DNA of 64,000 nt from an uncultured Myxococcales bacterium (GTDB taxonomy: Bacteria > Myxococcota_A > UBA9042), in NCBI GenBank assembly GCA_903883645.1, contig CAISBR010000108.1, positions 17,202 through 81,201 of the forward strand. The letters are read 5' to 3'. Below, in pieces: positions 28,540 through 43,900 of this stretch. The position numbers and the translations under genes are program-made. Numbering within the stretch: position 1 is the stretch's first letter; the number at the start of each line of letters is the position of its first letter. The notes below the pieces were generated by a model that saw nothing but the letters and a program-made list of their open reading frames with translations, was not told the DNA's origin and made no database searches.

Positions 28540-29382
28540 TTACTGCCCGCCGAGTGCCTCTGCAACCGCGTGCTGCCATGGGCCGGGAGCTTCGAGGTGG
28601 ACGTTGTGGCCCGCGCCCGCCACGACCCGCAGCTGTGCGGCTGGCAGAAGCTGCGACCATCGCGGCAGCAAGGCGCAATAGGCCGTATCTAGCTGACCTG
28701 ACAACACAATCGCCGGCAAATGGGTGCGGGGCGGCAGCGTGTCAAGGCGGGGCATCGCGCCATTACCCAGTGTCTGCAAGTGATCGACCAGCCCGCTTGC
28801 CGTTTGCGCTAGGCGAAGACGCCTTTGCTTACAAAGGGTTGTCTGGTCGCACCCAAGTTGGCTCGCAAATAGGGGCAGGCGCTGCCACGCATCGACGAAG
28901 GCAGTCAGGCCATGGCTCGCAAGGTCGCGCGCACGCTGTTGATCTTGGGCTAGCCGCGCCGGGCGCTCCACGTCGAGCAGCCCGGGATGGGCCGACTCGA
29001 GCACCAATGCCGAAATCCCAAGCTTCTGGCTAAGTTGCCCGTGTAGCGCCCACCACGCCGCCACGCGCCCACCGGCCGAATAGCCCACGAGCGCAAATGG
29101 GCCATGTAAGGTATTAGAAAGACTGCGATCAAGCAGATCGAGCAGCGCAAGCCAGGGGTTCTCGCTCTTGGCCAGGGCGATACCAGCCGAGCGCCCGTGC
29201 CCCGGCAGATCGACGGCAAGCCAGCGTCGCGGCGGCAGATTTGGGCCATTCACCACGTCGCGCCAAGCCCGACCGTCGGCCAAGAACCCATGCAAAAGCA
29301 CGACGGGCGGCGCCGCGGCCGGGCCAGTCACAGCGACAGCCAAGTGCCCAGGGGGCTGTGGCAACCAGCGCCAGCGACTCAT
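28540..29382 (-). CDS. menH: SHCHC synthase, menaquinone pathway
   Basis: This 280-residue alpha/beta hydrolase-fold enzyme should eliminate pyruvate from SEPHCHC to give SHCHC. MenH-type signatures are present: VVLLHGFLADGRAWRDV (oxyanion loop), nucleophile elbow GYSAGGR, LVLESAHPGL, and catalytic-His AGAGHNVHLEAPGPW. The second Gly-Tyr-Ser-Met residue is Ala here. ATG 29382 overlaps the menD stop by four bases (ATGA). The location directly after menD makes MenH far more likely than a generic hydrolase. Confidence 0.88.
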   Translation of the reverse strand: MSRWRWLPQPPGHLAVAVTGPAAAPPVVLLHGFLADGRAWRDVVNGPNLPPRRWLAVDLPGHGRSAGIALAKSENPWLALLDLLDRSLSNTLHGPFALVGYSAGGRVAAWWALHGQLSQKLGISALVLESAHPGLLDVERPARLAQDQQRARDLASHGLTAFVDAWQRLPLFASQLGCDQTTLCKQRRLRLAQTASGLVDHLQTLGNGAMPRLDTLPPRTHLPAIVLSGQLDTAYCALLPRWSQLLPAAQLRVVAGAGHNVHLEAPGPWQHAVAEALGGQ

Positions 29383-31064
29383 GTTTTGGCCAGACTCGCC
29401 AGGACTTGCTGTTGCATGGCGCGGCGATGCAGCAGCGAGCGGTCGCGATCCACCGCCAGAATCCCCAAGCGCGGACCTGGGTTATCGCCCGCGAGCCAAG
29501 CCAGCAACGCCGCGGGGTCGCCAAAGCGCTGCGCAGGCAAGCCAAACCCCTGGGCGATCGCCAGCAAGTCCAAGCCGTGCGGCGCGTAGAACAGGCGCTG
29601 ATGCACTTGCGGATCAATCACTTGTGCGGCAGGGAGCAGGTCAAAAATCGCGCCACCGCCGTTGTCGACGACGATCGCACGCACATCCGCACGCTGCTGG
29701 GTTAGAAGCTGCAACGAACCGATATCATGCAAGAATGCCCCATCGCCCAGCAGCAACCAGGTCGTGCCGCGGGCTAGCGCCAGCCCCAATGCCGTGGCCA
29801 ACGTGCCGTCGATGCCATTGGCACCACGCGCAACGTGAACGTGCACATCCTTTGGAATCTGTGGGCAAAACGCGTCGGCGTCGCGGATCGCCATCGAGTT
29901 AGCCAACACGAGCTGCGCACCCGGCTGCACGGCCGTGGCCAGGCAACCTAGCAGCTGCCGCTCTATGGGGCCTGGCAGCAGCGCCAGCTGGGTGGCAACC
30001 CGTTGATCAATCTTATGAAATGCGGAGCGCCACGCCTGCACCAGGGGCACCGGCAGCGGCGCATCGACCCAGCCCGCAGTGGCTTGCAGCGGGGGCAAGG
30101 GGGTCGAAAGCTGATTGCCCTTCAGCGGATCTGAGGTACGGCCCGGCTCGATGACCTGAATTGGCACCTGGGCCGCCGCCGCATCGTCGAGTAGTAGCTG
30201 TAACCCCTTAGAAGCAGGCCATTCGCCCAGGCGCACGATCCGGTCGGGCAGGGTGCGCTGCCGTACACCGGGGTCGCGCAGCCACAGGTCGAAGTAGCGC
30301 AACTGCCCGTCGGCCAGATGACTGGGCCACTCGGCCAGCAGTAGGGCAGAATTCGTCAGACGTTTAAGGAGTTGCGGGTCTTGCGGCACCAGCGGTCCGG
30401 CAATGACCACCACCCGCTCGCCGGGCTGGGGCGGCGGCACCGGGGGGCCTTGGAGGGCAATAACCGCAGTTATTTCAACCGGCTGCCGCGGCAATGCCGG
30501 CCCGGGCTGGAGAGCCAGCGGCAGGTCAAGGCCCACATTGATGTGCAACGGCAGACCGCGGGCACGCAATTGCGCCCCATACTGCAGCAATTCTGCGGCA
30601 ATTGTGGCAAATTGCCCCATACCCTCGGGCACGCAGACTTCTAGGTGCAGCACCGCGGCATAGCTGGCCAAGAATTGCTGCTGCCGCACGGTCTGCGGCG
30701 CGCCCACGTTCTGCAGCTGCAACGGCCTGTCGCCACTCAAGAAAATCAGCGGAAGACTGCTCTCGCCAGCCTCGACCACCGCGGGCAGCCAGTTCGCCAC
30801 GGCACTACCCGACGTGCAGACCACCAGCGGCAGCCGCCCCGCGCGCGCCAACCCCACGGCCACAAAGGCCGCACTGCGTTCGTCGAGCACCACGGTCACC
30901 GGCCAATCGCCCAGGTGCTCGCGCTCAGCCACGGCTTGCGCCAGGGGGGTTGACCGCGAACCTGGCGAAAGTACAACGTGATTTACGCCAAGATTGGCCA
31001 GTAGCCGCAGCAGCGCCCGCACCAGCTGCGACTGCATTTGCGCTTGCAGCGGCACCAAAGTCAT
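29379..31064 (-). CDS. menD: SEPHCHC synthase, menaquinone pathway
   Basis: This 561-residue ThDP enzyme decarboxylates 2-oxoglutarate and adds the succinyl-semialdehyde unit to isochorismate. Evidence: HVVLSPGSRSTPLAQA near the N-terminus, the activating Glu in TVVLDERSAAFVAVG, PLVVCTSGSAVAN, LSGDRP, and the ThDP-Mg motif LLLGDGAFLHDIGSL with VVDNGGGAIFDLLP. ATG 31064 overlaps the menF stop (ATGA), so earlier in-frame starts inside menF were rejected. The length is typical of the family. Confidence 0.95.
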   Translation of the reverse strand: MTLVPLQAQMQSQLVRALLRLLANLGVNHVVLSPGSRSTPLAQAVAEREHLGDWPVTVVLDERSAAFVAVGLARAGRLPLVVCTSGSAVANWLPAVVEAGESSLPLIFLSGDRPLQLQNVGAPQTVRQQQFLASYAAVLHLEVCVPEGMGQFATIAAELLQYGAQLRARGLPLHINVGLDLPLALQPGPALPRQPVEITAVIALQGPPVPPPQPGERVVVIAGPLVPQDPQLLKRLTNSALLLAEWPSHLADGQLRYFDLWLRDPGVRQRTLPDRIVRLGEWPASKGLQLLLDDAAAAQVPIQVIEPGRTSDPLKGNQLSTPLPPLQATAGWVDAPLPVPLVQAWRSAFHKIDQRVATQLALLPGPIERQLLGCLATAVQPGAQLVLANSMAIRDADAFCPQIPKDVHVHVARGANGIDGTLATALGLALARGTTWLLLGDGAFLHDIGSLQLLTQQRADVRAIVVDNGGGAIFDLLPAAQVIDPQVHQRLFYAPHGLDLLAIAQGFGLPAQRFGDPAALLAWLAGDNPGPRLGILAVDRDRSLLHRRAMQQQVLASLAKT

Positions 31065-32449
31065 GGCACGCCTGCTAGGCCCAGCATGCGGCCGATTGCA
31101 TTGTGTTTGTTGCGGATTTCGGCGTGTTCTTCGGCCGATGTGCTTGTCGCGACCAGCCCTGCACCGGCCCAGCTGCGCCACCCTTCACCCAAGAACTCAG
31201 CGCCGCGGAGCAGGACCGCAAATTCGCCCTCGCCACTGCCGCTGCCCGACACGATGCCTGCAAAACCGCCATACCATCCGCGTGGTTCGACCTCTAGCTC
31301 GTTGACAGTAGCCAGGGCAACCGGCCGCGGCAAGCCCAGCAGTGCCGGTGTGGGATGCAGGTGCAGCGCGGCGGTCAGCGCGTCGAGCCCTGGAGGCCGC
31401 CGGCCCCGCAGCGGTGTCGCCAAGTGCAGCAGCGGCCCCGCCTCGCGCAGCTGCCGTTTGCCAACTTCAACTTCAATTCCAATGCCTTGTAAGGTATCGC
31501 CCAGGTAGTCGACCACCAGCTGATGCTCGCGCTGCAGGTGTTCGGCCACCGGCTGACCCGCCGCCAAGGTGCCCGCCAAGGCCAATGTTTCAATGTGCTC
31601 GCCGGCGGTCCGCACCAGCAGCTCGGGCGACGCGCAGACCACCTGTCGCGGCGTGGCATCACCTAGCAACTGCGTAGAAAAACTACAGATCCACGCCGTT
31701 GCCTGCTGCTGGACCACCCGTTGCTCAACCGCGCGCGGCGACTGCGGGGTGGGCCAATGGCGCGGCACGCCGACCACCAGCTTGGCCAGCGCCGGGTCTT
31801 GCAGGCGCTGCAGGGCCGCAGCCACCGGTGCATCGCCACCGCTGCTCAGACACGCCTGTGGCGGCTCGCTGGGCAACATGGGTTGCAGCCCGTGCAAAAG
31901 ATTTGTGATTTCGGCGATTAGCTCGCCTTCCTCGCCGCGCCGGTCGAGCACTACCGCCACACCAAGGGGCTCGCCTGCTGTCAGCCACAGCCGCGGCAGC
32001 CAAACGCGCAACGGCACCTGCACGTGACCTGCCGCGTCGCGCTGCGGAAAGCCGGCCACCGCCACAACATCCAAAGTGGTCTGCTGGCGACTCAGCCACG
32101 CTTCGATCGTCGCCAAGGCCTGCGGGTCGGGTTGCAGGGCGTCGCCATGCTGCAGCAGCGCGATGCTGGTCACTGGGCAGGCATCTGTACAGCCCAAAGC
32201 CCAACGCAATCGGGCATTTGGACTGCGAAATGCAAAGCGCCAATCGCTGTTAGAAACAGCAACATCTTGACTATCAAAGGGAATATGTAGATGGGTGCGA
32301 CATACCGCCCGCTGACTGGGCCGGTGCAGCACGCGCAGCTGTAGCTCCAAGTGCGCGAGTAGACTAGCGATCGTTGGCCACGAACCGTCGCGACCCGGCA
32401 CGGCGCCGCGGGTAGGGCCGCTTACAGCTAGCACTGGGTCGCTGCTCAT
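31061..32449 (-). CDS. menF: Isochorismate synthase
   Basis: This 462-residue chorismate-utilising enzyme converts chorismate to isochorismate, the entry to the classical Men pathway. Conserved C-terminal blocks: VCASPELLVRT, LAGTLAAG, LVVDYLGDTLQ, LLHLATPLRG, LHPTPALLGLPR, WYGGFAGIVS and the GAGLVATSTSAEEHAEIRNK segment. The N-terminal third is divergent, as is usual. ATG 32449 overlaps the menG stop (ATGA). Its place next to menD favours MenF over a siderophore EntC or salicylate enzyme. Confidence 0.92.
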   Translation of the reverse strand: MSSDPVLAVSGPTRGAVPGRDGSWPTIASLLAHLELQLRVLHRPSQRAVCRTHLHIPFDSQDVAVSNSDWRFAFRSPNARLRWALGCTDACPVTSIALLQHGDALQPDPQALATIEAWLSRQQTTLDVVAVAGFPQRDAAGHVQVPLRVWLPRLWLTAGEPLGVAVVLDRRGEEGELIAEITNLLHGLQPMLPSEPPQACLSSGGDAPVAAALQRLQDPALAKLVVGVPRHWPTPQSPRAVEQRVVQQQATAWICSFSTQLLGDATPRQVVCASPELLVRTAGEHIETLALAGTLAAGQPVAEHLQREHQLVVDYLGDTLQGIGIEVEVGKRQLREAGPLLHLATPLRGRRPPGLDALTAALHLHPTPALLGLPRPVALATVNELEVEPRGWYGGFAGIVSGSGSGEGEFAVLLRGAEFLGEGWRSWAGAGLVATSTSAEEHAEIRNKHNAIGRMLGLAGVP

Positions 32450-33213
32450 AGCGCGCTCGCAGACTCCAGCCGTGGCATAGGCGAAGCAACATGAATACAA
32501 GAAGCTCCAGCCAATAGCGTAATCAACTGCTGCATCTTTAGGCCCGAACTCTCGATGATTTTGGCAAAATCCTCTGGGTTTGGGAATGCCGTCGTCGACT
32601 GTTGCAGGTAGCGGTACTCGCGCGGCGCACCCGACAGCAGGCCACCCAGCAGGGGCACGAGCACGCGCATGTGCAGCTTGGCCCCCAAGCCCAGAAGTCC
32701 TTTCGGCTCACTGGTTTCAAGGATGGCCACCCGCGCACCCGGCTTGAGGACGCGCGCCATCTCGGCCAGGGCCTTGGGCCGATCAAAGACGTTGCGAATG
32801 CCGTATCCCATGGTAATGCCGTCGAAACTCTGATCAGGGAACGGCAGCTGGCAGGCATCGCCCTGCACCAGCTCGATCCGCGCCCCCAGGCCCCGCGCCG
32901 CCACCTTGTCGCGCCCCACCGCCAGCATGCCGGCCGACGGATCGAGGCCCACCACCGTGCAGTTGGGGATGCGCTCGGCCACCATGATCGCCATGTCGCC
33001 GGTACCCGTTGCCAGGTCCAAAATACGAGACCCCGCAACGACTTGCAGTGCGTCGACCGTTTGCCGCCGCCAGCGCTGGTCGATGCCAAACGTCATCACG
33101 CGGTTCATCAGGTCGTAACGCGCGGCAATGCCGTCGAACATGGCGCCACTGCCGCCGGCAACACCCGTCGCGGCCAAGGGCTGCCCAACCGGACTGCTTG
33201 GTGAATTGCTCAC
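32446..33213 (-). CDS. menG: Demethylmenaquinone methyltransferase (UbiE/MenG)
   Basis: This 255-residue SAM-dependent C-methyltransferase catalyses the last step, methylating demethylmenaquinone. Family blocks: MFDGIAARYDLMNRVMTFG, WRRQTVDAL, the SAM loop ILDLATGTGDMA, DGITMGYGIRNVFD, LKPGARVAILETSEP and YRYLQQSTTAFPNP. The start is GTG 33213 with AGGCGG close upstream, 12 bases after the end of the DAHP synthase-HMG-CoA reductase gene. No ubiquinone-specific genes are seen, so the menaquinone assignment is preferred. Confidence 0.94.
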   Translation of the reverse strand: MSNSPSSPVGQPLAATGVAGGSGAMFDGIAARYDLMNRVMTFGIDQRWRRQTVDALQVVAGSRILDLATGTGDMAIMVAERIPNCTVVGLDPSAGMLAVGRDKVAARGLGARIELVQGDACQLPFPDQSFDGITMGYGIRNVFDRPKALAEMARVLKPGARVAILETSEPKGLLGLGAKLHMRVLVPLLGGLLSGAPREYRYLQQSTTAFPNPEDFAKIIESSGLKMQQLITLLAGASCIHVASPMPRLESASAL

Positions 33214-33225
33214 AATTCCGCCTTT

Positions 33226-35409
33226 TTATGCTGCGTCGCCGCGCTTGCCATGCGCCAAGTCGGCCTTGCGAGCATGTAGCCGCATGTGCCCCTGCTGAAT
33301 ACCTTCGCCGGCCAGGGCACGCAAGGCTGCAAGATTCGAAGCCAAACCGACCGCCGCCATCACCACCGCGAGTTCACGGGCGCTCTGGGTTTGAATGATT
33401 TCCATCGCCGTACGCACACCGGGGTGGGCCTGGGTCGAGCCGCCCACAGTGCCAATCGCCAAAGGAAGTTCCATGGTGCCGTGCAGGCCCGCATCGGTGC
33501 GCTGCCACGTCGCGAGCGGCCGATAGTCGACGCCAAGGCCCGCGTACGAATGTGCACCAGCCTCGATGGCCCGCCAGTCTTGCCCAAGCGCCACCGCCAC
33601 AGCATCAATGCCGTTTAGGATTCCCTTGTTGTGCGTCGAGGCGCGGAAGGGGTCCAGCTCGGCAAAGCGACTCGCCCGGGCGATGCCATCGGCTAGGCGC
33701 TCGCCGCCCAAGAAATCGCTGCCCACATCGCACTCTACGTGGCAAATGCGCCGAAGCGGGGTGTTCGACAGGATGCGCAGTCCGATGTCGCCGCCGATCC
33801 ACTCGCGCACCAGCGGTGCCACATGCTCGGCCACGGTATCGACCACGTTCGCGCCCATGGCATCGCCCACGTCGACATACAAGTGCATGACTAGAATGCC
33901 TATCTCGCGATCAAGCACCCGCACATCCACATCGGTACAGCCGCCACCGCGAGCCACCATCCGCGGAATCGCCGCGTTCGCCGCCGCGATAATGGCATCG
34001 CGCCTTTCTTCAATTAATTTAGCGCCTAGCTCGACGTTGGGCACGTTGTCGAACTGCACCTGCGCCGTCATCACGCTGGCCGTGGCATCGCCGCGAAAGC
34101 CGCCCGTAGCCCGCACCATCCGCGCCGCATTGCTGGCCGCCGCCACGACGCTCGGCTCTTCGACCACCATAGGCACAATGTAATCGCGGCCATTGACACG
34201 GAAATTGAGCCCGAGCGCCATCGGCAGGGCAAACGTGGTCACCACGTTCTCGCTCATCTTGTCGGCGATCGCCATGTCGAGCGTGCCGGTGCGCAAGAAC
34301 CGCTGCGCGGCCGGCGACAAACCAAGCTGAGTCGACAGCTGCCGGCAGCGCTCCGCCACCGACTTCTTATAGAACTCTGGGTAACGACTCGTGTACGGCG
34401 GCAAGTCTTGCGCGCGCGGCACCGTCACATCCAGGTCGAGCTTCTGGCCCAGCTCGAGCAGCTGATCGGGCAACAGCGCCTGAGGACCATCGCTTTTGGC
34501 GCGCGCCGGCTCGGGATGTACCTCGACAAGGACCACATCGGCACCCGCAGCCTTGCCGGCCAGCGCCAGCGGCACCACCAGATCGCGGCGACCGGCGGCG
34601 TGCGACGGGTCCACGGCCACGGGCAAATTCAGAGCGTGATGCAACAGCGCAACTGCACCAAGATCCAAGGTATTGCGCGTCTCGTTGCCAATGCCCGTTA
34701 CGCCGCGCTCGCAGAAAAGCAGCCACGGGCAACCGTGCACCAGCAAGTGCTCGCCCGCGCACAGCCACTCTTCGACCGTCGCGCCGCGACCGCGCTTGAG
34801 CAGCACGGCCTTGCCGGTGCGGCCCACCGCCCCAAGCAGAGCGAAATTCTGCATGTTTCGCGAGCCAATCTGGATGATGTCAGCAAACGCCGCCACCGCC
34901 TCGACATGCATCTCGCTCATCGCCTCGGTAACCACGCCCAGCCTGTGCTCGGCTGCGGCATCGGCCAGCCACTGCAGCGCAGGGGTACCGGCACCAGCAA
35001 AACTGTAAGGCGAGGTGCGGGGTTTATAGGCACCGCCGCGCAACAGTCGCGCTCCCGCCGACGCCACCAGCTTGGCCGAATCGCGAATTTGCTGCTGCGA
35101 CTCGACCGCACAAGGCCCGGCGATCAGCACAGTTTCACGGCCTAGCTCGATCACGCCGCCGGCCCGCGTCGGCAGCGACCAGGTCTGTGGCATGGCATCC
35201 ACACGCGGATGTGCAGATTTTGCCTCACGAATCGCTGCCACGCCCGCAATCGAGCGGATCAGCGCGTGGGGCACCCGCGACGAGTGCGGCTCAACTTCAA
35301 GCAGCCCCGGCCCCTCTTCACCGGTCAGGAGCCGCGTCCACAGCCCCAACCCTTGCAGCGCGGCGGTAACCGCCGAAGTATCGGCATTTGGGGCAAGTAC
35401 GATGATCAT
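33226..35409 (-). CDS. Bifunctional DAHP synthase - class II HMG-CoA reductase fusion
   Basis: One uninterrupted 727-codon frame from ATG 35409 (GAGG upstream) encodes two enzymes. Residues 1-70: ferredoxin-like regulatory domain. Residues ~90-328: type I-beta DAHP synthase barrel, with GAYKPRTSPYSF and metal ligands Cys100 (AGPC), His270 (DPSH), Glu296 and Asp307, spaced as in the Thermotoga enzyme. After a linker of about 10 residues, residues ~341-715 are class II HMG-CoA reductase: SRYPEFYKKSVAER, Glu388 in SENVVTTF, MVVEEPSVVAAASNAA, NAD-site DAMGAN (517-521 region), Lys595 in THNKGILNG, Asp611 in DWRAIEAG, His708 in GHMRLHA. Both halves keep all recognised catalytic residues. It links chorismate supply to mevalonate supply and lies directly before menG. 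Confidence 0.95.
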   Translation of the reverse strand: MIIVLAPNADTSAVTAALQGLGLWTRLLTGEEGPGLLEVEPHSSRVPHALIRSIAGVAAIREAKSAHPRVDAMPQTWSLPTRAGGVIELGRETVLIAGPCAVESQQQIRDSAKLVASAGARLLRGGAYKPRTSPYSFAGAGTPALQWLADAAAEHRLGVVTEAMSEMHVEAVAAFADIIQIGSRNMQNFALLGAVGRTGKAVLLKRGRGATVEEWLCAGEHLLVHGCPWLLFCERGVTGIGNETRNTLDLGAVALLHHALNLPVAVDPSHAAGRRDLVVPLALAGKAAGADVVLVEVHPEPARAKSDGPQALLPDQLLELGQKLDLDVTVPRAQDLPPYTSRYPEFYKKSVAERCRQLSTQLGLSPAAQRFLRTGTLDMAIADKMSENVVTTFALPMALGLNFRVNGRDYIVPMVVEEPSVVAAASNAARMVRATGGFRGDATASVMTAQVQFDNVPNVELGAKLIEERRDAIIAAANAAIPRMVARGGGCTDVDVRVLDREIGILVMHLYVDVGDAMGANVVDTVAEHVAPLVREWIGGDIGLRILSNTPLRRICHVECDVGSDFLGGERLADGIARASRFAELDPFRASTHNKGILNGIDAVAVALGQDWRAIEAGAHSYAGLGVDYRPLATWQRTDAGLHGTMELPLAIGTVGGSTQAHPGVRTAMEIIQTQSARELAVVMAAVGLASNLAALRALAGEGIQQGHMRLHARKADLAHGKRGDAA

Positions 35410-35496: not shown

Positions 35497-36621
35497 CTAC
35501 GCGCGTCGCGTTGTGAGCGCATCCGCAATGGCTCGCAGTGCATCGCGTTGGGCCGACTCGGGTAGCGTGGCCAGCGCCGTTTGGGCCTCGTGCAGCCGCG
35601 CCGATGCCACCCCGCGCGCTGTCGCCAGAGCGCCGCTGTCGCGGACCGTCGCCACAATTTCGCTCACCAGGGCGGGATCTGCGGTCTCGCCGGCCAAGGT
35701 AGCCGCGCGCACCAAAGCGATCTTGTCGCGCAAGTGGTTGTGATGCCTCAGGGTCAGTGCCAAGGGCAGGGTAATCTTGCCTTCGTTCAAGTCGGCCAGC
35801 AGCGCCTTGCCCGTCGCCACGGGCGCACCTTCAAAATCGAGCACATCGTCGACCAGCTGAAACGCCATGCCTAATTCGCTGCCAAACTGCACCAGGGCCG
35901 CCGTGGTCTCGGCCGAACAGCCGCCGGCTACAGCACCCGCTCGCAAAGCAAAGCGGAACAGCGACGCTGTCTTGCCATCGATGACCTTGTAGTAGCCCTC
36001 GCTATCGTCGGCGAGCACCTTGGCGCGCTCGGCTTGTTCGACCTCAGCCAGAATCAACGCTTCGACCGTGTTGAGCGCCTCGGTGACCAAAGGCGAGTGG
36101 CCCGTGGCTACGATGCGCCGCAAAGCCTCGACAAGCAGCCAATCACCAGCAAAAATCGATATCTCGTTGCCATGCAGCGCCCGTGCCGTCGCCTGTCCGC
36201 GGCGAGTATCGGCCAGGTCGACCACGTCGTCGTGCAGCAGGGTCGCCGCGTGCACGAGCTCGACCGCGACCGCCAAGTTGCGGGCGTGGGCATGGGCCGT
36301 CGCATCTTGCTTTGGGCCGAAACGACTTGCCAAAAGCGTACATAGCGGTCGCAGTCGCTTGCCGCCCGCCGCCAAAATGTGCCACCCCGCCCGCTGGGCC
36401 AAGTTCGCACCCGTGGTCTGCAGCAGCGCCTGCTCTACGCCCATCAGATCGCCCGCCAGCCAGGCCTGAAGCTCGCTGAGCCGCTCGGCAAGGTCGGGAT
36501 GCTGGTGCTCGTCGGCCCGCTCGGCCAGCCGCGGCAATGGGGTCAAGGCATGGCGCGTGCTGGCGGGGTGCGACTCCATGAGGTGCGGAGTTACCACGTT
36601 GTTCAACGCTTCTGCGGGCAT
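35497..36621 (-). CDS. Long-chain polyprenyl diphosphate synthase
   Basis: This 374-residue trans-prenyltransferase is of the IspB/HepPP-synthase type and makes the isoprenoid side chain for menaquinone. Evidence: GGKRLRPLCTLLAS, first Asp-rich motif LLHDDVVD (DDxxD), GDWLLVEALRR, KTASLFRFA and second motif FQLVDDVLDFEG. ATG 36621 follows GAGG; longer frames to 36729 lack support. Chain length is not readable from sequence alone. It lies 87 bases upstream of the DAHP synthase-HMG-CoA reductase fusion on the same strand, so head, tail and tail-assembly enzymes are clustered. Confidence 0.92.
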   Translation of the reverse strand: MPAEALNNVVTPHLMESHPASTRHALTPLPRLAERADEHQHPDLAERLSELQAWLAGDLMGVEQALLQTTGANLAQRAGWHILAAGGKRLRPLCTLLASRFGPKQDATAHAHARNLAVAVELVHAATLLHDDVVDLADTRRGQATARALHGNEISIFAGDWLLVEALRRIVATGHSPLVTEALNTVEALILAEVEQAERAKVLADDSEGYYKVIDGKTASLFRFALRAGAVAGGCSAETTAALVQFGSELGMAFQLVDDVLDFEGAPVATGKALLADLNEGKITLPLALTLRHHNHLRDKIALVRAATLAGETADPALVSEIVATVRDSGALATARGVASARLHEAQTALATLPESAQRDALRAIADALTTRRA

Positions 36622-36747
36622 CGGTGGGCCTCGCTGGGCTGGGACAAGCAGGCGGGAAAGGAGGAGTGGCGGCGAAATTTCACTCGCCACTGAAATCATC
36701 GACGCTGCCGGCCGCGCCGTCAAGCGCAAACTGGGCCGGCAGTCTAG

Positions 36748-37608
36748 CTAGCGCCGGGCTGCGGCAAAAACCTTTTGCAAACTCAGTGGAATCGGCCCCG
36801 CATAGCTGTCACCGCTTTGCAGTTCATGCGCGAGGCCGTCTAACGCGTCCCTCTCTTCGGCCGCCCAACTGCGGCACTCATCGCGCACTTGCAGCAGGCT
36901 ATTGCGGGTCTGGTGTGCCACATTCATCAAGCGCCGAGCGGTGTTGGCCATGCGACCCACTTGATACGACAGGCGCGGGTTCTTGCGCCACGCCAGCTCT
37001 TTCACCGCGTCGGCCAGCTCGCTTTGCAGCGCCCCAAGTGTCACAAACAGGTCTTCGATGCCATCGGCCGGCGGCTCGGGCGTCGCCACAATCGCGCGAA
37101 GTTGCGCCGCCACTAGCCCCGTCGCTAAGCGCTCTTTGCGTTGGAAAATACGCACATACATGGCCAACGACACCAGCCCGTTGACCGCCACCGCCGCAGT
37201 GCCGCCCACCGCCACTGAGCTCAAGCGAATGAGCAGCGTATGGGCCGGGGTGCCGCGCGGGATGAGAAGCAAGTAAATCGCTGTAAAGGCTGCTACTTGA
37301 AAGCCCGCGCCAAAGCCAAGCCGCATCGTTAGATACACCGCCAAGCCGACGCCCAGCGCCAGTTCGAGCGGAAACGGCAGACCAATCCACGCAAAGAGCG
37401 CCGCCACAGCGCCGCCGATAAGCGAGCCAAGCACTTGATCGCGCGCGCGTTTTAGCCCCGAAAGCATGATGGGCGAGGTGCAAATCACCGCGACAAACGC
37501 TGCGGAGACCGCGTCGGGATTGCCAAGCAGCGTAACGCCGGCCCAGCCGAGCACCGCCGAAGCAGCTGCTTTGCCGGCGAGAAACCGGTAATCAACTAAT
37601 GAATTCAT
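36748..37608 (-). CDS. FUSC / aromatic acid exporter-like membrane protein
   Basis: This 286-residue protein has about six hydrophobic segments in residues 10-150 (AASAVLGWAGVTLLGN, VSAAFVAVICTSPIMLSG, VGLAVYLTMRLGFGAGFQVA) and a cytoplasmic helical C-terminal half with many Arg/Glu. This is the layout of the ArAE/FUSC superfamily (YccS, DUF939, plant aluminium-activated channels), thought to export organic or aromatic acids. It starts 30 bases after mlaE and precedes the polyprenyl synthase. A link to the aromatic pathway of the cluster is possible but inferred. Confidence 0.7.
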   Translation of the reverse strand: MNSLVDYRFLAGKAAASAVLGWAGVTLLGNPDAVSAAFVAVICTSPIMLSGLKRARDQVLGSLIGGAVAALFAWIGLPFPLELALGVGLAVYLTMRLGFGAGFQVAAFTAIYLLLIPRGTPAHTLLIRLSSVAVGGTAAVAVNGLVSLAMYVRIFQRKERLATGLVAAQLRAIVATPEPPADGIEDLFVTLGALQSELADAVKELAWRKNPRLSYQVGRMANTARRLMNVAHQTRNSLLQVRDECRSWAAEERDALDGLAHELQSGDSYAGPIPLSLQKVFAAARR

Positions 37609-37638
37609 GTTTCTATTTAATATCAGCCCAGAGTCGGA

Positions 37639-38424
37639 CTAGTGGAGCAGCGAAGTGCTGTTGGCGAAGTAGGTAATGAAGTAGTCCCAGACGAAGATGC
37701 CGATGGCGGAGGTGACGACGCAGTTGTTGACGGCTCGCCCCACGCCTGCCGCGCCGCCCGAGACGCCGAGGCCATAGTAGCACGACACTACGCTGATCGA
37801 CGCGCCGAAGCTGGTGCCCTTGACCAGTCCGACCAAGTACTCGTCGACCAAGTGCGACTCGAAAACACCTTGAAAAAACACGCGATAATCTACGTCTAAG
37901 ATGAATTGTGACGTCAGCGCACCGCCTGCGAGCGCAAACAGGTCGCCCAGCGCCGTCAGCAGCAGCAGCATCAGCACCATCGACACGAACCGCGGCACCA
38001 CCAAATGGTGAATGGGGTCGATCGCCAGGGCCCGCAAAGCGTCAATCTGTTCGGTCACTTTCATGGTGCCGAGCTCAGCCGTGTTGTTGGCGCCCACCCG
38101 ACCCGAGAACATGAGCCCAATCAGCACGGGCCCAATCTCGGCCAGCACGGCATAGCCCGCACCCCAGCCCAGCAGCCCCGTCGCGCCGGTGCGCTTCACG
38201 TAGGTGCCGCTCTGGATCACCATGATCGCGCCAGTAAAAATCGCCGTCATCGCCACGATTGGATAGCTTTTGACGCCCACCTTGTACAGGTTGAGCCAAG
38301 TCTCATCGCGGTCGAAGCGAGGCGGAATCATCGCGCGAAAGATCTGCAGCATCTGCATGGTAATGCCACCGACCGTCTGCGAGATCTGCAGAAAACCGGC
38401 GCCTATGGCCCGTATTGGATTCAC
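37639..38424 (-). CDS. mlaE: MlaE-family lipid ABC transporter permease
   Basis: This 261-residue inner-membrane permease belongs to systems that move phospholipids between the membranes. Evidence: about five helices, the YPIVAMTAIFTGAIMVIQSG block, GLMFSGRVGANNTAELGTMK (coupling-helix signature of the MlaE/YrbE family) and EQIDALRALAIDP. The start is GTG 38424 with AAGGAG 10 bases upstream. It pairs with mlaF immediately upstream. No MlaD (MCE-domain) or MlaC gene follows; these must be elsewhere or replaced. Confidence 0.92.
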   Translation of the reverse strand: MNPIRAIGAGFLQISQTVGGITMQMLQIFRAMIPPRFDRDETWLNLYKVGVKSYPIVAMTAIFTGAIMVIQSGTYVKRTGATGLLGWGAGYAVLAEIGPVLIGLMFSGRVGANNTAELGTMKVTEQIDALRALAIDPIHHLVVPRFVSMVLMLLLLTALGDLFALAGGALTSQFILDVDYRVFFQGVFESHLVDEYLVGLVKGTSFGASISVVSCYYGLGVSGGAAGVGRAVNNCVVTSAIGIFVWDYFITYFANSTSLLH

Positions 38425-38451
38425 GCGAAATAGACTCCTTTACATGATGAT

Positions 38452-39231
38452 CTAGCTATGAACTTCTTTATCCCGCTGGAAAAACTCGTGAACTATGCTG
38501 TCGCGGCTGGCCAGCGCCTGCTCGGCGGTGCCGGCAAAGTGCACCCGCGCCGCATACAACAGAACATAGCGGTCGCACGCCGCGCGCATGCGGTCGATGT
38601 CGTGCGAGATCACCAAGCACGTCGAGTTGCGCTGCTCCTGGGTTTTACGAATCAAATTGAAGATTTTTGACGATGTCACCGGGTCCAGGCCCGCGGTCGG
38701 ATCGTCGAAAAAGATCAGCTCGGGGTCGTTGATATTCGCCCGCGCCAGACCGACGCGCTTCTTCATGCCTCCCGACAGTTCGCCGGGCATCAGGTGCCGC
38801 ACCTTGGGCAAATCCACTTCAGCTAGGCGCTCTTGCACCTTGGCCGCCACCTGTTCATCGCTAAACCCGCCGCGCTGCCGCATAGGAAAGGCCACATTGT
38901 CGCCCACGGTCATAAAGTCGAACAGCGCGTAATTTTGGAAGACTAGCCCGACACGCTCGCGCAGGGCCTGCTTCTCTTGCTCCGTGGTCTGCGCCAAGTC
39001 TTGTCCGAGCAACTCGATGCGGCCAGCATCGGGGGCCATCAGGCCGCAACAGAGCTTGACGAAGACGCTTTTGCCGACTCCGCCCGGCCCGATTAGGCCG
39101 ACAATTTCGTTGGCGCGCATCTCAAAGTCGAGGCCATCGAAGACGCACACTTCGCCAAACCACTTGACTAGGCCGGTGACACGCAACACCACTTCGCCCA
39201 ATTCACGCTCTGTTCCATGGTGTTCACTCAC
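38452..39231 (-). CDS. mlaF: MlaF-family ABC transporter ATPase
   Basis: This 259-residue nucleotide-binding subunit has Walker A GPGGVGKS, Q-loop FQNYALFD, ABC signature LSGGMKKRVGLARA, Walker B LIFFDDPTAGLDP and H-loop ISHD. The Asp in place of the usual catalytic Glu after Walker B Asp (FFDDPTAG) is common in MlaF proteins. The start is GTG 39231, overlapping the stop of the upstream lipoprotein gene by four bases (GTGA). With mlaE, 27 bases downstream, it forms the core of a lipid transporter. Confidence 0.93.
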   Translation of the reverse strand: MSEHHGTERELGEVVLRVTGLVKWFGEVCVFDGLDFEMRANEIVGLIGPGGVGKSVFVKLCCGLMAPDAGRIELLGQDLAQTTEQEKQALRERVGLVFQNYALFDFMTVGDNVAFPMRQRGGFSDEQVAAKVQERLAEVDLPKVRHLMPGELSGGMKKRVGLARANINDPELIFFDDPTAGLDPVTSSKIFNLIRKTQEQRNSTCLVISHDIDRMRAACDRYVLLYAARVHFAGTAEQALASRDSIVHEFFQRDKEVHS

Positions 39232-40484: not shown

Positions 40485-40649
40485 CGCAGGCGGCAGCGTA
40501 GCGAAATGGTGAACACCTGTCACGAATTCGCGCGACCGTTCTAGCGGCCCTCGCGATTTGTCACGATTTTGTCTAAACTAGCGCGCCGCTGCCCGCGCTG
40601 GCTGCGTCTGCGGCGTAAAGCAAATATTGTCATCGAGTTGGAGATAGCC
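40485..40649. promoter_or_regulatory. Divergent promoter region, lipoprotein-mla-men block / box genes
   Basis: These 165 bases separate the head of the long minus-strand block from boxC on the plus strand and should carry promoters for both. The boxC ribosome site (TTGGAG, 6 bases before ATG 40650) is clear. I cannot define -35/-10 elements or an operator. Confidence 0.45.
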
Positions 40650-42326
40650 ATGGCCGAGAATGCCGCCCCCGCCGCGCCCGTCGAGTTCGCCACTTCGCCC
40701 GAGCAGTACCACCATTGGCAGATTCGCATCCACGGCGGCGTGGCCACGCTGACCCTGGCCATCGATCGCGATCATCCGCTGCGGCCCGGTTACGAACTGA
40801 AGTTGAATAGTTATGACCTGGGTGTCGATATCGAATTGGCCGATGCGATCCGCCGGCTGCGTTTTGAACATCCCCAAGTCCGGTGCGTGCTGGTCACCTC
40901 GGGCATTGCCAAGATGTTCTGCGCGGGCGCGAATATTCGAATGCTCTCGCAGTCTTCGCATACCTTCAAGGTCAACTTCTGCAAGTTCACCAACGAGACG
41001 CGCTGCGAGATCGAAGATGCCACGCTCAACTCAAATCAGCGCTACATCGCCGCTTTAAACGGCACTGCGGCGGGCGGCGGCTACGAGCTGGCCGAGTCGT
41101 GTGCCGAGATCTACCTGATCGACGACGGTTTTTCGGCCGTGTCGCTTCCCGAAGTGCCCCTGCTCGGCGTGCTGCCTGGCACCGGCGGTCTGACCCGCCT
41201 CGTCGACAAGCGCAAGGTGCGCCGCGATGTGGCCGACCTGTTCTGCACCAAGGCCGAGGGGTTTCGCCTGCGTGATGCCCTTAAAATGCGTCTAGTTGAC
41301 GGCGGTTGGGCCAAGTCGAAGTGGCAGGTCGAGGTCGATAAGCGCGCCGCTCACCTCGTTGAGCAGGCCGGGGGCGTGGGCAGCGAGGTCGGCATTGCGC
41401 TGACGCCGGTAGAACGCCAGACAAGTCACGAAGATGACAAAGAGATCCTGACCTATCGCTTTGTGCACGTGGCCATTGAACAAGGTGGACGGCACGCCCG
41501 CATTGAGCTGCGGGGACCCGAGACGGCACCCCCGCAATCGCATCAAGAACTTCATGATCTAGGTTGTAACTCATGGGCACTGCAGGCATTTCGCGAGCTC
41601 GACTCTGCTCTGCTCGACCTGCGCCTCAACCACAGCCCGGTGGGCTTGCTGAGCGTGACAACCGTGGGCGATCGCGAGCAAGTCCTGGCCTGGGATACCG
41701 CGATTTCGCGTTTGCGTGCCGAGGGTTCGTGGCTCGCTCGCGAGGTCCAGTTGCATCAGTCGCGCACGCTGCGGCGGCTCGATAACATGGCCAAGTCTAT
41801 GTTTGCTATCGTGCTTCCGGGATCGTGCTTCGCAGGTACCCTTGCCGAGGTGCTGTGGTCGGCCGACCGCGCCTACATGCTCGATCACCCGGATCAGCCC
41901 AGCGCCATCGCCCTACATCCGGTCAATTTCGGCGTGCACACCACCTACAACAGCATGACGCGACTGCAGATTCGTTTCTTTGGCGAGCCAGACAGCATGA
42001 CTAAGGCGGCCACGCTGCACGGCCCCATCGAGCCCAGCGACGCCGAGCGTTGCGGCTTGGTTACGCGAGCGCCCGACGACCTCGATTGGGACGACGAAGT
42101 GCGGATCGCCGAAGAAGAACGCCTATCGTTTTCGCCAGATGCACTAACAGGCATGGAGCAGAACCTGCGCTTTGCCGGGCAAGAGACCTGTGATACCAAG
42201 GTTTTTGGCCGATTGACTGCCTGGCAGAACTGGATCTTCCAGCGGCCGAACGCCGTGGGCGAGCGCGGCGCGCTGACGATGTACGGGGACCCGCGGTCGC
42301 CCATGTTCGACTTCAACCGCACCTAG
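40650..42326 (+). CDS. boxC: 2,3-epoxybenzoyl-CoA dihydrolase (BoxC)
   Basis: This 558-residue double-crotonase protein should open the epoxidised ring of benzoyl-CoA hydrolytically in the aerobic box pathway. Evidence: an N-terminal crotonase half with SGIAKMFCAGANIRML and the AALNGTAAGGGYELAESCAE segment (oxyanion-hole Gly pair), a PLLGVLPGTGGLTRLVDKR block, and a C-terminal half ending NWIFQRPNAVGERGALTMYG, typical of BoxC. ATG 40650 follows GGAG. It is followed by boxB 158 bases on. A generic enoyl-CoA hydratase is unlikely given the length and neighbour. Confidence 0.92.
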   Translation: MAENAAPAAPVEFATSPEQYHHWQIRIHGGVATLTLAIDRDHPLRPGYELKLNSYDLGVDIELADAIRRLRFEHPQVRCVLVTSGIAKMFCAGANIRMLSQSSHTFKVNFCKFTNETRCEIEDATLNSNQRYIAALNGTAAGGGYELAESCAEIYLIDDGFSAVSLPEVPLLGVLPGTGGLTRLVDKRKVRRDVADLFCTKAEGFRLRDALKMRLVDGGWAKSKWQVEVDKRAAHLVEQAGGVGSEVGIALTPVERQTSHEDDKEILTYRFVHVAIEQGGRHARIELRGPETAPPQSHQELHDLGCNSWALQAFRELDSALLDLRLNHSPVGLLSVTTVGDREQVLAWDTAISRLRAEGSWLAREVQLHQSRTLRRLDNMAKSMFAIVLPGSCFAGTLAEVLWSADRAYMLDHPDQPSAIALHPVNFGVHTTYNSMTRLQIRFFGEPDSMTKAATLHGPIEPSDAERCGLVTRAPDDLDWDDEVRIAEEERLSFSPDALTGMEQNLRFAGQETCDTKVFGRLTAWQNWIFQRPNAVGERGALTMYGDPRSPMFDFNRT

Positions 42327-42484
42327 ACGGCGCTGCTCGGGCTCGCCACAAAACTGAAACAGTCGTTCCAAAACCCCTTGCAACCGCCCATCATCTCGTT
42401 ACAATACTGTGACGCGGCGGGGCAGGCTCGCCGCGCTTTGCCTTACTCATCGCCGTCTTGCACGCCAGCCACACCGGAGTCGCC

Positions 42485-43900
<1,416 letters not shown>

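Follow-up and report, generated by a model that had tools for sequence, protein, structure and literature searches.

Can a single bacterial polypeptide open two unrelated biosynthetic pathways, and how might the two entry enzymes have come to be joined? The question is raised by a gene in a 64,000-nucleotide stretch from an uncultured Myxococcales bacterium (assembly GCA_903883645.1, contig CAISBR010000108.1, positions 17,202 to 81,201; hereafter the window). It encodes one protein comprising a complete type I-beta 3-deoxy-D-arabino-heptulosonate 7-phosphate (DAHP) synthase (DAHPS), the shikimate-pathway entry enzyme, followed by a complete class II 3-hydroxy-3-methylglutaryl-CoA (HMG-CoA) reductase (HMGR), the mevalonate-forming enzyme. 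An earlier note on the window had drawn attention to this frame.

One frame, two complete enzymes

The fused gene occupies 33226..35409 on the minus strand, running as an open reading frame (ORF) of 727 codons from an ATG at 35409 to 33226; the plus-strand frame over the same positions contains several stops. When scanned with Pfam, the 727-residue product matched PF00793 and PF00368 only, with DAHP_synth_1 at residues 90–322 (212.6 bits; cut-off 25.5) and HMG-CoA_red at residues 351–713 (314.9 bits; cut-off 27), and neither a thiolase nor a chorismate mutase domain was returned. NCBIfam models for type I-beta DAHPS (TIGR01361, 311.9 bits against a cut-off of 267.75) and class II HMGR (TIGR00532, 382.7 against 259.95) were both passed, while the NADPH, class I HMGR model TIGR00533 scored far below its cut-off (42.4 against 441.8). 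These profiles, together with the stop-free homologues described below, confirm the earlier note's placement of both enzymes in one 727-codon frame, which lies on the minus strand.

An N-terminal ferredoxin-like domain (beta-alpha-beta-beta-alpha-beta; residues 1–86, 35152..35409) was also claimed in the earlier note and is present in the secondary structure of the predicted model, to which the structures 1vr6 and 1rzm align at full length, from residue 1; it sits where the DAHPS of Thermotoga maritima has its N-terminal domain. The DAHPS barrel follows (residues 87–323, 34441..35151), delimited by profile matches, key residues and structure alignment, and carries the metal ligands Cys100, His270, Glu296 and Asp307. 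In the homologue alignment, a poorly conserved linker of about 16 residues (324–339, 34393..34440) separates the barrel from the HMGR (residues 340–714, 33268..34392), which was assigned by profiles, residues and structure alignment and contains the cofactor helix I481-x-R483-xxx-R487. Its catalytic residues are Glu387, Lys595, Asp611 and His708. Seven of the eight key residues are thus as originally given; the eighth had been placed at Glu388, but residue 388 is Asn and the glutamate is Glu387.

The same architecture recurs widely. Among the best 120 of 6817 matches in a protein search, full-length fusions formed 29 clusters, the window's own included, at 68–100% identity to the query, and partial ones were present besides. 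The last full-length fusion scored 1014 bits, and the next matches, from 548 bits, were HMGRs alone of ~400 residues. All eight metal and catalytic residues are identical in 29/29 full-length clusters. Across the fusions, mean pairwise identity is 55% in the N-terminal domain, 72% in the barrel, 36% in the linker and 79% in the HMGR, and the ratio of nonsynonymous to synonymous substitution rates is well below 1 in both domains for all seven pairs compared, consistent with purifying selection on each half. Genome contigs yielded 12 further fused loci (L002–L013), labelled Myxococcales (nine), Deltaproteobacteria (two) and Proteobacteria (one). No internal stop interrupts the 12 coding sequences from the window and 11 full-length fused loci; L012 is likewise fused, though cut by a contig end. 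Because separate records carry the same stop-free frame, the junction is not an accident of assembly. The fusion is real and conserved, in uncultured bacteria with mainly Myxococcales as their closest named relatives.

Sole copies and the likely role of the protein

Profile searches covered 18 genomes, including 12 (the window's own and G001–G011) of the 13 known to carry the fusion; the genome of L005 lay outside the set. Exactly one HMGR, the fused copy, was found in each of the 12 fused genomes, all of which also contain a diphosphomevalonate decarboxylase. Matches to 1-deoxy-D-xylulose 5-phosphate reductoisomerase (DXR) were found in none of the 12, nor in any of the 18. The fused copy was the only type I DAHPS in 8/12, the window's genome among them, and type II DAHPS was found in 0/12. 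As the sole HMGR, with no DXR found, the fused HMGR would therefore have to supply all isoprenoids, and as the sole DAHPS in eight genomes the fused DAHPS would supply all aromatics there. On the evidence of these draft genomes, the fused protein would be the only entry to the mevalonate pathway and, in 8/12, to the shikimate pathway; it likely opens both for the whole cell, beyond menaquinone.

The direction of the HMGR reaction can be approached through the cofactor helix, which reads IxRxxxR in 29/29 fusion clusters. In PMC13370337, this helix is given as Dx(V/L)xxxL in NADH enzymes and (H/Y)xSxxxR in NADPH enzymes. The fused HMGR half lacks the NADH-type (degradative) motif; its last Arg matches the NADPH motif, and the first two positions match neither. 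From that last Arg, the HMGR half likely uses NADPH, and it would work in the biosynthetic direction. Degradative use of mevalonate was judged unlikely, given the sole HMGR, the failure to find DXR and the presence of a mevalonate kinase/decarboxylase operon. In the window's genome this operon comprises idi2, an mvk-like gene, mvd, a second GHMP kinase and a prenyltransferase, without an HMGR; the second kinase was taken as pmk by position, and both kinases scored below cut-offs. The match to type 2 isopentenyl diphosphate isomerase starts only at residue 165 of a 506-residue ORF (L127:7775-9295), so the ORF may be extended at the N terminus, or its start may have been called too early.

The protein is accordingly proposed to be a bifunctional enzyme that, for the whole cell, catalyses both entry into the shikimate pathway and the formation of mevalonate, a reading to which we assign a probability of roughly 0.78. 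Both active sites would be functional in the fused protein; a single chain would yield DAHP as well as mevalonate, with the two entry enzymes produced 1:1. They may share one oligomer, and their joining may alter oligomer and control. A more far-reaching version makes the main DAHPS and sole HMGR of this Myxococcota lineage one allosteric machine, with isoprenoids drawn from leucine, HMG-CoA synthase being lacking. Joint feedback control, as suggested in the earlier note, would then come from the ferredoxin-like domain, which would respond to an end product by slowing both entry reactions together; this version is speculative and rather unlikely.

Several observations weigh against the whole-cell assignment. 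A second type I DAHPS occurs in 4/12 fused genomes (G001, G005, G006 and G010). The genomes are metagenome-assembled, the window's own being 95% complete, so absences are provisional. Confidence in the predicted model (predicted local distance difference test) falls below 50 at residues 386–388, spanning the catalytic Glu387, and at 131–134, and the NCBIfam model for the HMGR half bears the name "degradative". HMG-CoA synthase was detected by PF08540 or PF01154 in 0/12 fused genomes, so that the source of the substrate has to be deduced. The HMGR half has a GTG 10 codons in from its beginning in 6/12 coding sequences, a possible internal start, and L007 has an ATG there. Also near the joint, a TTG stands 28 codons before the Ser-Arg of the HMGR half in 9/12 and a GTG 12 codons before it in 6/12; the linker contains no ATG in any of the 12, and no start codon there is common to all of them. 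An internal start producing a separate HMGR half was judged unlikely, since the linker is devoid of ATG and the other candidates occur in some sequences only.

The second DAHPS of G010, which of these genomes is closest to the window's in HMGR identity (L012, 91%), has one TAG stop within the open frame as searched (L087, G010:C338:4133-4855); the gene could be in decay, or the stop could stem from a sequence error.

Neither HMG-CoA synthase profile detected a candidate in 15/18 genomes (the window's own, G001–G012, G014 and G015), and both matched in G013, G016 and G017. TIGR00748 gave nothing over its cut-off in the 18 genomes; its sub-cut-off matches, in 14/18 genomes and 8/12 fused ones (best 38.6 against 353.35 bits; none in the window's own), were taken for related ketoacyl synthases. 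HMG-CoA lyase exceeded its cut-off in 11/12 fused genomes, G003 showing two sub-cut-off pieces on two contigs, and the profile searches detected neither decarboxylase nor lyase in the unfused genome G012. In the window's genome, a carboxyltransferase, an enoyl-CoA hydratase and a biotin carboxylase precede the lyase (L162:4986-10894), a gene set which we take to be that of a leucine-degradation cluster, an assignment for which NCBIfam offered no specific name above cut-off. Isoprenoid formation via a leucine-degradation route has been described in myxobacteria (PMC7321100), and HMG-CoA likely comes from leucine catabolism here.

The menaquinone operon and the origin of the fusion

The earlier note had set the fusion in a menaquinone context, and it does lie inside such an operon, a minus-strand run of pps, fusion, menG, menF-like, menD and menH-like genes. 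Upstream is a gene of the polyprenyl diphosphate synthase family (pps; 35497..36729, best NCBIfam models all below cut-offs). Downstream, all on the same strand, are menG/ubiE methyltransferase, 12 bases away (32446..33213, TIGR01934 over cut-off), a menF-like isochorismate synthase (31061..32500, TIGR00543 at 149 bits, below the cut-off of 224.75), menD (29379..31181, TIGR00173 over cut-off) and a menH-like gene (28540..29382, TIGR03695 at 179.4 bits, below 208.55). In the fused loci, menG is downstream of the fusion in 12/13 and pps upstream in 11/12 of those whose contig extends that far. The exception is L011, a 16.5-kb contig with the fusion (L011:9358-11505) but neither pps nor menG, where an ORF downstream resembles quinolinate synthase NadA, judging by eye.

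Unfused relatives suggest how this arrangement arose. The fused loci have the order pps-[aroF::mvaA]-menG. G016 and G017 show pps-aroF-menG, and their HMGR lies near the decarboxylase. In G014 and G015 the order is pps-aroF-mvaA-menG, unfused, with TAGCGATG and an ATGA overlap, and a second HMGR is close to the decarboxylase. Two genomes depart from this series: G012 has HMGR-menG on one contig and pps-aroF-menF on another, plus a further DAHPS, and G013 has pps-HMGR-menG, its type II DAHPS and a distant match to PF00793 lying elsewhere. In a 28-row HMGR tree, the 17 men-type HMGRs, fused or unfused, group together (100/100) and stand apart from the others, and the fused ones form one group of 13 (97/97) with no unfused row inside; the tree label "MVA_operon" includes L123 (G013, with the decarboxylase on a different contig) and L020 (assigned without a neighbour check). 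The fused DAHPSs likewise form one group (100/100) in a tree that omits six long or distant rows (L084, L085, L087, L090, L095 and L100), the partial L012 and second copies of included loci. As the fused group is monophyletic in both trees, a single fusion event is well supported.

Gene order is best read as a derivation of the fusion from a gene pair like that of G014/G015. Against this, a clade made up of the fused rows and L016/L017 alone is rejected in the DAHPS tree (approximately unbiased test, p-AU 0.012); one of the fused rows with L016, L017, L088, L089, L102 and P0125 is not rejected (p-AU 0.46). That tree gives no support to the fused DAHPS having descended directly from the split pair in L016/L017. 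Judging from the relatives, the men operon would already have had a DAHPS gene flanked by pps and menG; a second HMGR gene would then have been inserted between this DAHPS gene and menG, and the overlapping or abutting DAHPS and HMGR genes joined. Loss of the mevalonate-operon HMGR would have left the fused copy likely indispensable. A viral origin was rejected, a search of viral contigs having turned up no relative.

Beyond the operon, an aromatic-acid-exporter-like membrane protein and an MlaE/ABC-ATPase pair (36748-39231) lie directly upstream of the polyprenyl synthase on the same strand. Further on are divergent ECH-family (585 residues) and PaaA_PaaC-like (480 residues, just below cut-off) genes (40569-43900), which resemble boxC and boxB of aerobic benzoyl-CoA breakdown.

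Alternative explanations and known systems

An artefact of assembly or sequencing that joined two genes might be suspected from the fragmentation of the window's genome into 244 contigs, and the earlier note had itself named a sequencing error at the junction. With the fusion recurring across 29 protein clusters and on 12 further contigs, this is ruled out for practical purposes, and its likelihood is negligible. Another explanation, suggested in the earlier note, is a gate dedicated to menaquinone, the fusion being retained because it keeps the supply of head-group and tail precursors in fixed proportion. The men operon setting, with menG and pps so regularly adjacent, is what this would predict, but a protein that provides the sole HMGR in 12/12 genomes, with DXR absent, and the sole DAHPS in 8/12 would feed all isoprenoids and aromatics, and L011 retains the fusion with no men genes on its contig. 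The stoichiometry is also unfavourable: menaquinone takes one chorismate but several isoprene units, and most chorismate goes to aromatic amino acids. The fixed ratio thus finds no support in the genomes, and a menaquinone-dedicated gate is improbable.

It is a good deal easier to imagine that loss of a stop codon between translationally coupled genes produced a neutral read-through, the enzymes remaining independent and the joint carrying no regulatory meaning. The two genes overlap or abut in unfused relatives and no internal part is less conserved than the linker, both as expected of such an event. However, one event has survived deep divergence (among full-length clusters, identity to the query falls as low as 68%), no unfused row falls within the fused group of the HMGR tree, and the fusion persists in L011 where men genes are not adjacent; we consider neutral read-through quite possible, at somewhat under even odds. 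That one half might be a structural or regulatory relic has a precedent in the mainly regulatory chorismate mutase domain of some chorismate mutase-DAHPS fusions (PMC12202928). Here it is hardly credible, in view of invariant catalytic residues, purifying selection on both halves and the sole-copy status of the HMGR half in all 12 fused genomes and of the DAHPS half in eight. The reading of a bifunctional enzyme serving both entry steps for the whole cell is preferred.

In eight genomes both halves are the only copies found, and relatives preserve apparent stages of the fusion's origin. The protein provides a natural experiment on whether control becomes shared when unrelated gatekeepers are fused, and offers a ready-made scaffold on which prenylated aromatics might be produced. 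It also points to a mevalonate pathway seemingly running without HMG-CoA synthase.

Each half has characterized counterparts. The type I-beta DAHPS of Thermotoga maritima (1rzm/1vr6) also has a ferredoxin-like domain, to which the window protein adds a whole HMGR at the C terminus. Conversely, the class II HMGR of Pseudomonas mevalonii (1qax/8sz6) is without the N-terminal DAHPS, and the Asp, Leu and Leu of its NADH-type cofactor helix are replaced by Ile, Arg and Arg in the window protein. Enterococcus MvaE joins acetoacetyl-CoA thiolase to HMGR (PDB entry 7m1z is named as a thiolase). HMGR is C-terminal in both bifunctional proteins, whereas its partner is a mevalonate-pathway enzyme in MvaE and a shikimate-pathway enzyme here. 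DAHPS-chorismate mutase fusions (Bacillus, Listeria and Porphyromonas) similarly join DAHPS to a second enzyme, in their case from the same pathway, in contrast to the window protein. In the Porphyromonas fusion, DAHPS comes first, the chorismate mutase partner is dimeric and cross-talk is reported (PMC12202928), a partial parallel to the window fusion. Bifunctional fusion enzymes are thus a known kind; the DAHPS-HMGR pairing appears new as far as our literature searches show (open-licence PMC full texts, titles and abstract openings), where no published example was found, in agreement with the earlier note. Among the papers listed on Myxococcota, none dealt with mevalonate and menaquinone together. 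Fusions usually unite enzymes of one pathway; that of the window unites the entry enzymes of two.
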